A stretch of 40,895 nt of DNA, taken from positions 1 through 40,895 of the forward strand of contig JAFVSJ010000001.1 in the NCBI GenBank assembly GCA_017503805.1, in the 5' to 3' direction. The stretch's first letter is position 1; the number at the start of each line of letters is the position of its first letter. The notes beneath the pieces are model-generated. The model was not told where the DNA came from. It saw only the letters and a list, made by a program, of their open reading frames with translations, and did no database searches. Shown piece by piece: positions 6,942 through 31,040 of this stretch. The position numbers and the translations under genes were made by a program. Origin of the DNA: Tidjanibacter sp. GTDB lineage: Bacteria; Bacteroidota; Bacteroidia; Bacteroidales; Rikenellaceae.

Positions 6942-6983
6942 ACCCACCTGCACACTCACAAAAAAATGCAATCTGTGAGGAGA

Positions 6984-7063
6984 TTTTTGTGCTAAACGAG
7001 AGAGCGAGTCCGCAGCTTACTCTCGTAAGTGAGGAACTCGCTCTTCGAAGTGTGGTGCAAAAA
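6984..7063 (+). ncRNA. Structured repeat element, copy 1 (putative RNA fold, 3' of rplY)
   Basis: Outer helix P1: 6984-6992 (TTTTTGTGC) with 7055-7063 (GTGCAAAAA), nine pairs including two G-U. P2: 7000-7009 (GAGAGCGAGT) with 7036-7045 (ACTCGCTCTT), ten pairs. Internal loop: CCGCAG (7010-7015) opposite TGAGGA (7030-7035). P3: CTTAC (7016-7020) with GTAAG (7025-7029), loop TCTC. The same loops and helix lengths recur at 29799-29919 and 29929-30055 with different helix bases. Whether it is transcribed is unknown; the wobble pairs favour the plus strand. It could instead be a palindromic mobile repeat. Confidence 0.6.
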
Positions 7064-7083
7064 GCACCCACAGAGTGCTTTTT
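7059..7083 (-). terminator. Terminator of rplY, touching its stop codon
   Basis: AAAAAGCAC (7059-7067) pairs exactly with GTGCTTTTT (7075-7083), loop of seven bases. The rplY stop codon occupies 7084-7086, directly against the stem. The A/T outer pairs make it work in both directions. Its left arm shares bases 7059-7063 with helix P1 of the repeat element, so the two stems exclude one another on the plus strand. Confidence 0.8.
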
Positions 7084-7641
7084 TTATTTGCCGGACTGAC
7101 GAGTAGCCAATACAGCCACAACACTCATACTTGCGGGCTGGAGCATAGTAAGACCCTCGAAGTTGAGGTCGCCAACGTTGATGGTCTTGCCAACGCCAAG
7201 GTTGGTGATGTCGATAACGAGCTCGTCGAGCAGGTGCTCCTCAAGACCCGAAACGGTCAGTTTGCGGCGGAGAACCTGGAGCTTACCACCGGCCTTAACA
7301 CCCTCCGAGTTACCGGTAATGGTAACGGGAATCTCAATTGCTACGGGTTTGCCTGCAGCTACACGGAAGAAGTCGATGTGCTGGCAGTAGTCCTTCACGG
7401 GGTGGAACTGAGTCTCGCGCATAACGCCTTTCTCAATGTTACCCTCGATGTTGATCTCTACGATGTAGGATTTGGGAGTGTAGAGGAGTTTCTTTGCCTC
7501 TGCAGCCTCAACGGAGAAGTGGATGGTCTCGCCACCGTTGCCGTAGAGTACGCAGGGGATGAGTTTCTCGCGACGGATGTCTTTGGCGCTCTTCTTGCCG
7601 AACTGCTCGCGCTTAAAGCCTTTGATCTGAATAGTTTGCAT
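7084..7641 (-). CDS. rplY: 50S ribosomal protein L25 / general stress protein Ctc
   Basis: 185 residues: the two-domain (TL5/Ctc) form. The N-terminal part binds 5S rRNA (MQTIQIKGFKREQFGKKSAK, then LIPCVLYGNGG and the PKSYIVEI/HIDF segments); the C-terminal TL5 beta domain follows (PVAIEIPVTITGNSEGVKAG, then the LRVSGLEEHLLDELVIDIT-like stretch). It stabilises 5S rRNA in the large subunit and in some bacteria is stress-induced. It is a single-gene unit with its own promoter (7734-7766) and terminator. The stop codon overlaps the start of the terminator's T run, as it does for obg at 30054. Confidence 0.96.
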   Translation of the reverse strand: MQTIQIKGFKREQFGKKSAKDIRREKLIPCVLYGNGGETIHFSVEAAEAKKLLYTPKSYIVEINIEGNIEKGVMRETQFHPVKDYCQHIDFFRVAAGKPVAIEIPVTITGNSEGVKAGGKLQVLRRKLTVSGLEEHLLDELVIDITNLGVGKTINVGDLNFEGLTMLQPASMSVVAVLATRQSGK

Positions 7642-26993: not shown

Positions 26994-29600
26994 ATGACAA
27001 CAGAATTTTATCGTAGGAGCGTAGGCGAGGTCGCAACCCAATGCGACACCAACACAGACAATGGAATCTCTGCCCAGGAGGCCGCCTCAAGGCTCGCACG
27101 CAACGGCTACAACGAGTTCGCCAAGAAGAAGCACACCTCACTCTGGACCAAGTTCATCTCGCAGTTCAAGAGTTTTATGATTATCGTGCTCCTCATCGCT
27201 GCACTCATTTCTGCCATAACAGGCCACCTCAACGGCGAGGGTATCACAGATGCCATCATCATCCTCTCCATACTCATCGTCAACGCCATCATAGGCGTAT
27301 TCCAAGAGGCTAAAGCCGAGAACGCTCTCGACGCTCTCGAGCGACTCTCGGCACCACACTGTAAAGTCATAAGAGATGGCAAGCACCTGGTAATCGAGTC
27401 GCGCGAATTGGTCGTGGGCGACATCGTGGAGATTGAGACGGGTGACAGCGTGCCGGCCGACCTGCGACTCGTAGAGAGTGTGAACCTCAAAATACAGGAG
27501 GCCGCACTCACAGGCGAATCACTCCCCGTGGAGAAGCAGACCCATCTGCTCACAGAGTCGCTCCCCATAGGCGACCGCAGCAATATGGCCTTCAGTTCGT
27601 GCAGTGTCACCTACGGCCGAGGTCGAGGCATCGTGGTAGCCACAGGCGAGCAGACAGAGGTGGGCAAAATCGCAGCTATGATTAGCTCGGTGCCCGATAT
27701 GCGCACCCCTATGCAGGTGAAGCTCGACAAACTCGGCAAGACTCTGGCCGTCATCAGTCTGGTAGTCTGTCTGGTCATCTTCGTCATAGGTCTCTGCTAT
27801 GGTCGCGACCTGATGGAGATGTTTATGACCGCCGTGAGCCTCGCTGTGGCAGCCATACCCGAGGGTTTGCCAGCCGTCTCTACGGTTGTGTTGGCATTGG
27901 GCGTGCAGCGACTCGCCAAGCAGAATGCCATCGTGCGTAACCTCCCCTCGGTGGAGACTCTCGGCAGCACCACAGTCATCTGCTCCGACAAAACGGGCAC
28001 CCTCACACAGAACAAAATGACCGTCGTGGGGTCCTATCCCGCACTCACAGAGCAGCTGCTTGCCGTAGGGACACTCTGCAACGACACCACACGCGGCAAC
28101 AATGGCGAACTCTTCGGCGACCCCACCGAGACAGCCCTCGTAGCCTATGCCGAACTCAACAACTACACGCAGTCCGAGGCCTTGACACGCCACCCGAGGG
28201 TGTCGGAGATCCCCTTCGACTCGGAACGCAAGCTGATGACCACCATCCATCGCAAGGATGAGAGCACTCTCATCGTGGCCACCAAAGGAGGTTTCGACGA
28301 GCTGTTGGCAAAGTGTAGCTACATTGAGCACAACGGCCGGGTGGAAGCGCTTACCGAGAGTGATAAAGAGTCTCTTGCTGCCGTAAATACTACGATGGCT
28401 GAAAAGGCTCTGCGTGTGCTCTCAATGGCATACAAAGAGGTGACCATCACATCGGAACCCGACGCAGAGCAGTTGGCCACCATCACAGCCAATGCCGAGA
28501 GCGGTCTGACCTTTGTCGGTATGGTGGGTATGATTGACCCGCCACGCGAGGAGGCCAAAGTGGCTGTGGAGCAGTGCAAGGCGGCGGGCATCAAACCCGT
28601 GATGATTACGGGTGACCACAAAATCACCGCCCAAGCCATCGCACAGAGTCTCGGCATAATGGCCCCGAGCGACCGAGTACTCACAGGTGCCGAGGTGGAG
28701 CAGATGAGCAACGAGGAGTTGAGCCAAGTGGCGGCCGATGTCTCGGTCTTTGCGCGTGTGGCCCCCGAGCACAAAGTGCGCATCGTGGAGGCCTATCAGA
28801 AGCTCGGCAATGTGGTGGCTATGACGGGTGATGGCGTGAATGATGCACCCGCGCTGAAGCTCGCCAACATTGGTGTGGCTATGGGCATCACGGGTACCGA
28901 CGTGTCGAAGGAGGCTGCCGATGTGGTCTTGGCCGACGACAACTTTGCCACCATCGTACACTCCGTGAGCGAGGGTCGACGCATCTATGACAACCTCATA
29001 AAGTCTATCCAATTTATGATTTCGACCAACCTCGGCGAGATCACCCTACTGCTCGTGGCCGTACTCTGCAACTTCGATATGCCCCTGCTCCCCATACAGT
29101 TGCTCTTCATCAACCTTGTGGGTGACAGCCTCCCCTCGCTCGCATTGAGTGTAGACCAAGCCGCCGCCGACATTATGTCGCGCAAGCCGATAGACCCCAA
29201 AGCAGGTATCTTCACTCGCCCCTTCACACGTAGGGTGGTGACACAAGCTCTCATTCTCGGTGCGATGACCATCGTTGCCTACCTCATTGGTCTGGAGAGT
29301 TCGGTCGACGTGGCCCGCACGATGACCTTTGCGGTGATGATTTTCTCGCAGTTTGTGATGATCTTCTCCATCCGTTCGGGCAACCGATTCTTCACGGACC
29401 GCTTCTTCAGCAACAAGTGGCTCTGGATGACAATCGTATTGGTGATAGGTCTCACCCTGCTGGTGATGCTCGTGCCGACACTTCAGTCACTCTTCCGCCT
29501 TGCACCCCTCACCTCGCAGCAGTGGTGGATTACGATAGGACTTTCGCTGGGTGTCTTGCTGCTGAGCGAACTCCCCAAACTCTTCCTCCGCAGGGAGTAG
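26994..29600 (+). CDS. Calcium-type cation-translocating P-type ATPase
   Basis: 868 residues, full length. N-terminal cation ATPase domain (MTTEFYRRSVGEVATQCDTN), actuator TGES loop (AALTGESLPVEKQ), M4 with PEGLPA (ion-binding), phosphorylation site CSDKTGTLTQNKM (Asp332), nucleotide domain with KGGFDELL, hinge MVGMIDPPREEAK and MTGDGVNDAPALKLANIG, then M5-M10 with FINLVGDSLPSLALSVD. These are P2A/P2B (SERCA/PMCA-like) features; Ca2+ export is the likely role, with Mn2+ possible. It is monocistronic, ended by a hairpin at 29621-29652, and divergent from an AraC regulator. Confidence 0.94.
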   Translation: MTTEFYRRSVGEVATQCDTNTDNGISAQEAASRLARNGYNEFAKKKHTSLWTKFISQFKSFMIIVLLIAALISAITGHLNGEGITDAIIILSILIVNAIIGVFQEAKAENALDALERLSAPHCKVIRDGKHLVIESRELVVGDIVEIETGDSVPADLRLVESVNLKIQEAALTGESLPVEKQTHLLTESLPIGDRSNMAFSSCSVTYGRGRGIVVATGEQTEVGKIAAMISSVPDMRTPMQVKLDKLGKTLAVISLVVCLVIFVIGLCYGRDLMEMFMTAVSLAVAAIPEGLPAVSTVVLALGVQRLAKQNAIVRNLPSVETLGSTTVICSDKTGTLTQNKMTVVGSYPALTEQLLAVGTLCNDTTRGNNGELFGDPTETALVAYAELNNYTQSEALTRHPRVSEIPFDSERKLMTTIHRKDESTLIVATKGGFDELLAKCSYIEHNGRVEALTESDKESLAAVNTTMAEKALRVLSMAYKEVTITSEPDAEQLATITANAESGLTFVGMVGMIDPPREEAKVAVEQCKAAGIKPVMITGDHKITAQAIAQSLGIMAPSDRVLTGAEVEQMSNEELSQVAADVSVFARVAPEHKVRIVEAYQKLGNVVAMTGDGVNDAPALKLANIGVAMGITGTDVSKEAADVVLADDNFATIVHSVSEGRRIYDNLIKSIQFMISTNLGEITLLLVAVLCNFDMPLLPIQLLFINLVGDSLPSLALSVDQAAADIMSRKPIDPKAGIFTRPFTRRVVTQALILGAMTIVAYLIGLESSVDVARTMTFAVMIFSQFVMIFSIRSGNRFFTDRFFSNKWLWMTIVLVIGLTLLVMLVPTLQSLFRLAPLTSQQWWITIGLSLGVLLLSELPKLFLRRE

Positions 29601-29620
29601 GCAGAGATAACCGAATAGAG

Positions 29621-29652
29621 AAAACGGAATCCATTGGTTTGGATTCCGTTTT
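29621..29652 (+). terminator. Terminator of the P-type ATPase gene
   Basis: AAAACGGAATCC (29621-29632) pairs with GGATTCCGTTTT (29641-29652), loop of eight bases, followed by T. Confidence 0.92.
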
Positions 29653-29657
29653 TGTTT

Positions 29658-29798
29658 CTCCTCGTTCGGCCGAGGAGCGGAAGGAATTGCACCTGCGGCA
29701 TCGGGAGCCATAAAAAGTGGGGGGGTGCGGAGGAATTTGCACTCGGGAGCGGTAAAAAAGCGCATATCGCGGAGGAGATTTCAAGGCGCACAGCCTCG
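29658..29798 (+). repeat. Tandem partial repeat units upstream of the structured elements
   Basis: A small hairpin (29658-29664 CTCCTCG with 29671-29677) is followed by units that each begin with CGGGAGC, then TAAAAA, then a (G)CGGAGGA core: about 29702, 29744 and 29797 (the last is the start of copy 2). The second unit (29754-29795) ends in CAAGGCGCAC and matches 6903-6941. No coding potential is credible here. Confidence 0.6.
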
Positions 29799-29919
29799 GG
29801 AGCGGTAAAAAGCGTGATTTGCGGAGGAAATTTCGCGATAAACAAGGTGGCGAGTCCGCAGTTGACTGAACGTCAATGAGGAACTTGCCCAACGTAGGCG
29901 GTGCGAAATTTACCGCTCC
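29799..29919 (+). ncRNA. Structured repeat element, copy 2
   Basis: Closing helix GGAGCGGT (29799-29806) with ACCGCTCC (29912-29919), extendable. P1 AAATTTCGC (29828-29836) with GCGAAATTT (29903-29911). P2 GGCGAGT (29849-29855) with ACTTGCC (29883-29889), one G-U. Loop CCGCAG (29856-29861) opposite TGAGGA (29877-29882). P3 TTGAC (29862-29866) with GTCAA (29872-29876). The stretch from the A-run through GCGTGATTTGCGGAGG to CGCGATAAAC is identical to copy 3. No promoter box was found next to it. Confidence 0.65.
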
Positions 29920-29928
29920 AACTGAAAT

Positions 29929-30055
29929 AAAAAAGCGTGATTTGCGGAGGAAATTTCGCGATAAACGAAGTAGCCGGCCCGCAGTTTGCTGACGCAAATG
30001 AGGAGCCGGCTATCTGATGTGCAGCGCGAAATTTACCCGCAAGGCACGCTTTTTT
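29929..30055 (+). ncRNA. Structured repeat element, copy 3, merging with the obg terminator
   Basis: Nested helices: AAAAAAGCGTG (29929-29939) with CACGCTTTTTT (30045-30055); TTGCGG (29942-29947) with CCGCAA (30037-30042); P1 AAATTTCGCG (29951-29960) with CGCGAAATTT (30025-30034); P2 GTAGCCGGC (29970-29978) with GCCGGCTAT (30005-30013); loop CCGCAG (29979-29984) opposite TGAGGA (29999-30004); P3 TTTGC (29985-29989) with GCAAA (29994-29998). The outer stem with its T run also acts as a terminator for obg, whose stop codon (30054-30056) overlaps it. Confidence 0.65.
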
Positions 30056-31040
30056 ATTTGTTTAATATCGCCCACAACGCATCCTTCAACTCCACAATGC
30101 CCTGCATAGCTACAGACGAAATGAAATAGGCAGGTATGCCCTCGGGCAATGTGGTACGAAGGTGGTCCACAATCTCCTCGTCGACCATATCGCACTTGGT
30201 GATGGCCAGCAGACGCTCCTTATCGAGCAACTCGGGGTTGTACTCCCGCAACTCGCCCAGCAGAATCTCATACTCACGCTTGATGTCGTCGGAGTCGGCA
30301 GGAACCATAAAGAGCAATACCGAGTTGCGCTCAATGTGGCGCAAAAACCTCATACCCAAGCCCCTACCCTCGTGGGCACCCTCGATGATGCCGGGAATGT
30401 CGGCCATAACAAACGAGTGGTTATCGCGTACCTCCACGATACCGAGGTTGGGCTCCAGAGTGGTGAAAGCGTAGTTGGCAATCTTGGGTTTGGCGGCCGA
30501 AACCACCGAGAGCAGTGTAGACTTACCCGCATTGGGGAAGCCCACAAGGCCCACATCGGCCAGCACCTTGAGTTCCAAGATGAATGCTCCCTCGAGGCCC
30601 TCCTCGCCGGGTTGTGCATAGCGGGGAGCCTGATTGGTGGCTGTCTTGAAGTGCCAATTGCCCAGACCGCCACGACCTCCCTTGAGCAGCACGAGTTCCT
30701 CTCCGTGGGAGGTAACCTCGCCCACAATCTCACCCGTCTCGGCATTGCGTGCTACCGTTCCGAGGGGCACCTCTATAATCTGGTCGGCTGCGGTCTTGCC
30801 CGACATACGGCTGCCGCCTCCAGCCTCGCCATCTTTGGCAAAGACGTGGCGGGCATACTTGAGGTGGATGAGGGTCCAATATTGGCTATTGCCACGGAGG
30901 ATGACACTGCCACCTGCACCGCCATCGCCGCCGTCGGGACCGCCATAAGCCACGAACTTCTCGCGGCGGAAGTGTGCGCTACCTGCGCCACCCGCACCCG
31001 AGCGGCAAAATATCTTTACATAATCTACGAAATTAGACAT
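30054..31040 (-). CDS. obg: GTPase Obg/CgtA
   Basis: 328 residues from the ATG at 31040 ([20 protein letters not shown]), the usual Obg start; an in-frame ATG at 31094 adds a non-conserved tail. The Gly-rich Obg fold ([29 protein letters not shown]) covers residues 1-158. The GTPase follows: GFPNAGKST, the TTLEPN switch, [16 protein letters not shown] and ISSVAMQG. There is no C-terminal OCT domain, as is usual in Gram-negatives. It acts in late 50S subunit assembly and the ppGpp response. Unlike the genes upstream it has its own promoter (31123-31154). Confidence 0.96.

Follow-up and report, generated by a model that had tools for sequence, protein, structure and literature searches.

A dispersed, probably REP-like nested palindrome that begins at the base after stop codons in Tidjanibacter

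Three copies of a nested palindrome in the window

The window, the whole stretch of DNA analysed here, comprises 40,895 nt of a Tidjanibacter sp. contig (JAFVSJ010000001.1, positions 1 to 40,895) and holds three copies of a nested palindrome of about 125 nt. Folding and repeat comparison delimit copy 2 (29929..30053, plus strand) as complete, with an outer A-tract/T-tract stem, helices P1 and P2, an internal loop and helix P3; its minus strand forms the 3′ end of an OBG-family GTPase gene, whose TAA stop codon (30054..30056, minus strand) the palindrome immediately follows. Copy 1 (29807..29916, plus strand), delimited in the same way, is an array unit without an outer 3′ arm of its own, joined to copy 2 by the linker TCCAACTGAAAT (29917..29928), which recurs in slightly altered form between units elsewhere in the window's genome. 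Two remnant left arms of decayed units, of repeat families D2 and D3, lie at 29710-29738 and 29753-29782 (together 29710..29782, plus strand). Because copy 1 lacks an outer 3′ arm and is preceded by these two further remnants, 29710-30053 is a decayed array. Copy 3 (6960..7083, plus strand) is a full nested palindrome directly after the TAA stop codon (7084..7086, minus strand) of the ribosomal L25 gene. A first-pass annotation of this DNA had described two adjacent copies and a third on one plan; all three are present, but the third spans about 6960-7083 and not 6984-7063.

The plan common to the three copies consists of the outer A-tract/T-tract stem, P1, P2, the internal loop CCGCAG opposite TGAGGA, and P3. 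The P2 and P3 base pairs quoted in the first-pass annotation are correct, and its statement that the loop bases are identical in all copies applies to the internal loop but not to the apical loops, which read TGAAC, TGAC and TCTC. Its alignment closes P3 with a G.T pair beside the internal loop; an equally plain pairing of the core runs C-G, C-G, a G.A mismatch, C-G and A-T, with one bulged G and one bulged A. A covariance model of the core, trained on copies that included all three, matched copy 1 at 29840..29898 (E 1.6e-18), copy 2 at 29963..30020 (E 3.3e-18) and copy 3 at 6994..7051 (E 2.3e-19), each on the plus strand.

Folding of the plus strand was far more stable than expected for copy 2 (29925-30059, z -9.9) and copy 3 (6960-7095, z -6.8), with none of 200 shuffles as good in either case, and less so for copy 1, whose outer 3′ arm is missing (29805-29926, z -2.4, 6 of 200 shuffles as good). 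Folding of the minus strands was about equally stable, with z -9.8 over 29925-30059 and z -6.3 over 6960-7095.

Elsewhere, several types of inner module (TGAATTTTGCACC.., CAACTGC..GCGTTGC and ..GCGTCATACTGCGATAA) occur under similar outer arms, in copies of the L017 and L025 regions and at sites in the sister genomes G012 and G017, as if inner modules were exchangeable. A second palindromic repeat (CCTCCCCTAA..TTAGGGGAGG, followed by a GGTCGG-rich stretch) often adjoins the element, at L006 and L008 in the window's genome and at several loci of the genus mate G005, such as L150. On the gene-sense strand, many G005 elements are followed by degenerate short tandem stretches (CTTATAGGTCTTATAGG.., GTCTACCGTCTACC..), for example at L157, L163 and L194, and other elements of that genome have in common a second type of tail (ACTTTCAAGGGGAAGCGG..).

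Position and orientation relative to stop codons

The first base of the palindrome directly follows a stop codon, in one orientation, a placement rule that the first-pass annotation had missed. We inspected 209 copies from four genomes for ORFs of at least 450 nt ending within 90 nt: one ended on the gene side of 152 and on the other side of 10, the flank being long enough to reveal such an ORF for 201 and 182 copies, respectively. The ends of 100 of the 152 gene-side ORFs sat 46-51 nt from the core, and 57 of the 209 copies had no ORF of at least 450 nt ending nearby on the gene side. Within the window, two minus-strand genes follow the rule: that of the OBG-family GTPase, with its stop at 30056-30054, and that of ribosomal L25, with its stop at 7086-7084.

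The edge of the palindrome was located with a pairing register fixed by bases +6 to +20 downstream of the stop codon. A register was found in 52 of 140 copies, compared with 54 of 697 controls in which the arm was taken from another copy. With the register so fixed, the arm match was 0.79-0.87 at +1 to +5, fell to 0.63, 0.42 and 0.29 within the stop codon, and before it was mostly near a quarter (0.15-0.37). This drop towards chance speaks against a palindrome that zips into the end of the coding sequence. In a comparison between different methods, whose register setting favours a match at the stop, the outer stem lay 0-2 nt from that codon for 91 of 135 copies of the element versus 2 of 30 ordinary hairpins; the register fixed by +6 to +20 is free of this bias, and the edge given here relies on it.

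Since ORFs end on the gene side (152 copies against 10) and the palindrome begins after their stop, the neighbouring gene is read through the element on the minus strand. This speaks against the plus-sense RNA proposed in the first-pass annotation: the neighbouring genes read the other strand and keep the same side in 152 of 209 copies.

The orientation rule weakens beyond the genus, with an ORF of at least 450 nt ending within 110 nt on the gene side of 18 of 39 copies and on the other side of 7. Even so, 14 of these 18 gene-side ends fell 44-58 nt from the core, three Proteobacteria contributing a single copy each; at the Ghiorsea copy the ORF lies on the opposite side.

Stop codons at elements were TAA in 112 cases, TAG in 33 and TGA in 7, against 108, 71 and 67 for other long open frames, which suggests that element-adjacent stops are poor in TGA relative to a background that includes frames possibly not genes. 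At L169, L156 and L017, some ORFs seem to enter the arm and to end at an in-frame TAA or TGA inside it (..GCGGGTAA / GGGTGA). Judged from the sequence, the arm may serve as a back-up stop codon. In a 2015 study, Liang, Rudd and Deutscher are said to have found that a REP can stall ribosomes when it lies no more than about 15 nt from a stop codon.

Distribution, paired changes and turnover of the copies

The window's genome (1.25 Mb in 53 contigs, 59% complete) contains many copies. Copy 2 gave 41 blast matches, some of which represent both strands of one place; the core pattern occurred at 41 places, at least two of them chance-like, and never in reversed form; and the covariance model of the core returned 37 matches. 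The same model identified many further homologues in related genomes, with 94 matches in G005 (99% complete), 49 in G012, 47 in G017 and 13 in G016, and none in the near-complete genus mates G001, G004, G014 and G015.

A 27-nt pattern taken from the core matched at least 110 stretches in a scan of named genomes, a collection large enough for a few chance matches to be expected, and no stretch of viral contigs. The 80 matches listed came mostly from Rikenellaceae and other Bacteroidota, and also from Zetaproteobacteria, Tolumonas, Ghiorsea and Pseudoalteromonas. The covariance model scored in all 15 genomes picked from these matches, with at least 20 matches in ten, 7 and 6 in two, and one in each of three. 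P2, which the 27-nt pattern does not require, is complementary in the distant copies examined closely (more weakly in L240), as is the long outer arm of the zetaproteobacterial copy, likewise not demanded by the pattern. The core, CCGCAG-helix-loop-helix-TGAGGA within a variable helix, recurs in other Bacteroidota and a few Proteobacteria. Carriers are patchy: when 149 genomes were drawn evenly from the order and searched with stricter filters, 10 had a model match, the window's own included.

The helices change in pairs well beyond chance. For the window's genome we used 29 of 35 cores, leaving out a chance match within a gene and five cores that closely resemble others in the set. Two-sided changes occur in 12 of 16 pairs, and 96.8% of cells pair, a level reached by 0 of 500 shuffles. 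Of the 40 pairs predicted for the complete element, 23 show two-sided change in this genome. A wider set of 31 cores (3 from the window and 28 from 25 other genomes) likewise had two-sided changes in 12 of 16 pairs, with 93.5% of cells pairing and 0 of 500 shuffles reaching that level, and shifting the partner by 1-3 columns lowered pairing to 28.6-46.4%. Among 134 distinct cores, P3 was Watson-Crick in 665 of 670 cells and P2 in 898 of 1072.

The paired changes do not, however, prove selection on an RNA. At orthologous sites in four genomes (42 copy pairs), P3 differs in 29 cells, all of them two-sided, with none one-sided or broken; P2, scored in a fixed register that allows no bulges, had two-sided changes in 86 cells, wobbles in 6 and broken pairing in 52. 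That one-sided states are so scarce in P3 suggests whole-stem exchange or mutual correction at least as much as single compensated mutations, and copies of a repeat can swap whole stems by recombination or palindrome correction. The first-pass annotation had taken the paired changes as the mark of selection on structure; they are strong, but selection on RNA does not follow from them here. Its further point, that all wobbles are allowed on the plus strand, survives as an excess of G.T there that is weak in the larger sample: 33 G.T against 16 A.C in the 134 distinct cores, with 14 of the 33 at one P2 position, and 10 against 2 in the 31 cores once the invariant G.T is left out. This weak excess would fit single-strand recognition of the plus DNA strand as well as RNA.

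Copies also turn over between genomes. G005 holds groups of 6, 5, 3 and 3 copies that have an identical 43-nt core at different genes, and in the stop-adjacent members of these groups homology runs from the stop to the T-tract. Two gene sites, that of the L25 gene among them, are occupied in all four of the genomes compared (G000, G005, G012 and G017), and P2 and P3 differ between the L25 copies; 36 gene groups are common to at least two genomes. The obg site is occupied in 3 of 23 genus genomes (G000, G005 and G022). Comparison of the sister genomes G012 and G017 yielded 12 sites from 18 query ends, the other 6 ends having no counterpart among the sequences compared. The element is absent from one genome at 3 sites, the outer terminator alone is left at 1, different inner modules are present at 5 and the same module at 1; of the remaining two sites, one is cut by a contig end and one is decayed. 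The site that kept its outer terminator (G017, end 104) shows a deletion that fits recombination between CCGCACTT repeats. A MITE or other non-autonomous transposon would be marked by dispersed copies, insertion polymorphism and a target duplication; dispersed copies and presence/absence were seen, a clean target duplication was not, and the three absent alleles may be deletions and not empty sites. Two of the absent alleles (ends 107 and 122) show no terminator hairpin, so that the outer arms seem to arrive with the element. Insertion into the loop of a pre-existing terminator was set aside on these two alleles, where deletion is possible.

Readings of the element and comparison with known systems

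We consider the element to be, probably, a REP-like, non-autonomous, dispersed nested palindrome of gene 3′ ends that often acts as a terminator. The hairpins and the paired changes are real, and the element is not a single regulatory RNA. The first-pass annotation had named a palindromic mobile repeat as the main alternative to its own reading, and this alternative fits better, given the many dispersed copies, the arrays, the identical recent copies and the presence/absence between genomes.

A tie to transcription termination is supported, on sequence features, for about 60% of stop-adjacent copies: a T5 tract is present in 93 of 148 and absent in 55, and the element probably often helps to end transcription. 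A simple terminator scan limited to loops of 3-8 nt found no terminator in copy 1 or copy 2; in copy 3 it picked out a single short hairpin, on the plus strand. These T5 tracts, the conservation of sites over four genomes, the exchange of modules at the same site and the ordinary terminator that follows the obg stop of G018 at the corresponding position are all what one would expect of a vertically inherited family of intrinsic terminators, non-mobile and homogenized by recombination. We regard such a family as unlikely, however, since whole elements are present or absent at 3 of 12 sites, carriers are scattered over 10 of 149 genomes of the order (the window's own included), many near-identical copies stand at unrelated genes, and copies without a T-tract keep the same stop-codon edge.

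A classical REP, a hairpin moved by a RAYT (a Y1 tyrosine transposase) that binds single-stranded DNA, is also improbable, although the element's bulged, dispersed palindromes at gene 3′ ends resemble REPs as described in PMC3733652, and the slight one-strand preference in pairing would suit such recognition. Y1_Tnp (PF01797) was detected in 6 of 15 distant carriers, and the Bacteroidetes Y1 subclass 2.6 is flanked by ‘atypical secondary structures’ (PMC6006769). Against this, Y1_Tnp was absent from the other 9 distant carriers and was found in 1 of 23 genus genomes, G007 (locus L087), which has only chance-level core matches; none was found in the genus carriers, which are drafts in which related enzymes below the Pfam cut-off are possible. 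A REP of this kind would be expected on the flanks of a Y1 gene in its genome, but the flanking sequence available for 13 Y1 genes contained no convincing core, with L337 giving one chance-like match, and no unpaired GTAG tag stood beside the core hairpin in the core alignments, where CCGCAG and TGAGGA are invariant. We therefore set the Y1/RAYT enzymes aside as movers of the element; the search for a mobilizing enzyme, made with Y1_Tnp, returned no candidate.

A plus-sense structured regulatory RNA is very improbable: covariation and the small G.T excess favour it, but the neighbouring gene lies on the other strand in 152 copies versus 10, the copies form arrays, and 29500-30250 contains no promoter-like site (shuffles 0.5).

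Under the REP-like reading that we prefer, the unit would be copied or moved as a folded DNA strand, recognized at its asymmetric bulged core (CCGCAG/TGAGGA) by an enzyme provided in trans. Once landed, it would be carried as the 3′ untranslated end of a gene, where copies with A-tract/T-tract arms would act as intrinsic terminators and the remainder as 3′ hairpins. Recombination between units (array contraction, direct-repeat deletion and conversion) would then swap inner modules while the outer arms stay. A bolder version is possible but doubtful: that a cross-phylum class of mobile hairpins is delivered in one orientation to the base after the stop by a non-Y1 enzyme recognizing the bulged CCGCAG/TGAGGA hairpin, thereby spreading finished gene ends through genomes. 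If the preferred REP-like reading is right, the family would have a sharp genomic address, directly behind the stop codon, and a core common to phyla, but not the enzyme that accounts for other REPs. It would connect a mobile repeat with the termination of transcription and with the 3′ ends of mRNAs, and its module swaps would offer a natural set for testing palindrome evolution. It would also carry a warning that paired changes among repeat copies need not imply selection on RNA.

No Rfam family matched at its threshold in the window or at 19 distant loci, tRNAs apart, and the nearest hits below threshold were MIR2646 (E 0.03, 20.2 of 245 bits) and STnc540 (E 2). The first-pass annotation could link the structure to no named RNA family, and this stands, as do the real structure and the strong paired changes behind its proposal of an undescribed structured RNA; the plus sense of that RNA does not. 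Integron attC sites have paired R boxes (RYYYAAC/GTTRRRY) and go with an integron integrase; attC and kink-turn readings were considered and dropped. A non-exhaustive literature search, confined to main texts, recognized no publication as describing the element family, and the text of PMC5009743 that it covered had no passage on REPs.

GTAG-tagged REPs and REPINs, moved by RAYTs, are extragenic palindromes of 20-40 bp, single or in arrays, mostly downstream of genes near the stop codon, and the REP end often provides the TAG stop codon (PMC3733652). The element is similarly dispersed, single or in arrays and close to stops downstream of genes, but is nested, about 125 nt long and locked in one orientation, with no Y1 gene in its genus carriers. 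According to the same paper, CGTC-tagged REPs occur in Bacteroidetes and Proteobacteria near ORF 3′ ends without a dedicated transposase, and have a CGTC/TGTC/CCTC tag, an 8-9 bp stem starting with AT, a loop of 4-5 nt and a CCA-like tail (PMC3733652). On its gene strand the element likewise has CCTC followed by AT (CCTCATTTAC; CCTC-AT-TTAC...) and, in most copies, a loop of 4-5 nt. Measured against that description, it differs in a P3 of 5 bp plus one A-T across the bulge, in a GCGG tail and in its position inside two further variable helices. Because the RAYT link did not appear, GTAG is absent and the CGTC form fits only partly, we file the element outside both named REP superfamilies.

Among candidate RNAs described in PMC8040213, the palindromic HMP2_4205 (132 bp), HMP2_1032 (106 bp) and HMP2_1065 (80 bp) are predicted Rho-independent terminators found mostly or wholly in Bacteroidetes. 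Compared by description, they resemble the element in being palindromic and of similar size, and one of them may belong to its family. Like intrinsic (Rho-independent) terminators in general, those 93 of 148 stop-adjacent copies place a hairpin with a T-tract behind it at the end of a gene; unlike such terminators, the element has more: a common internal-loop core, signs of mobility and T-tract-free copies.
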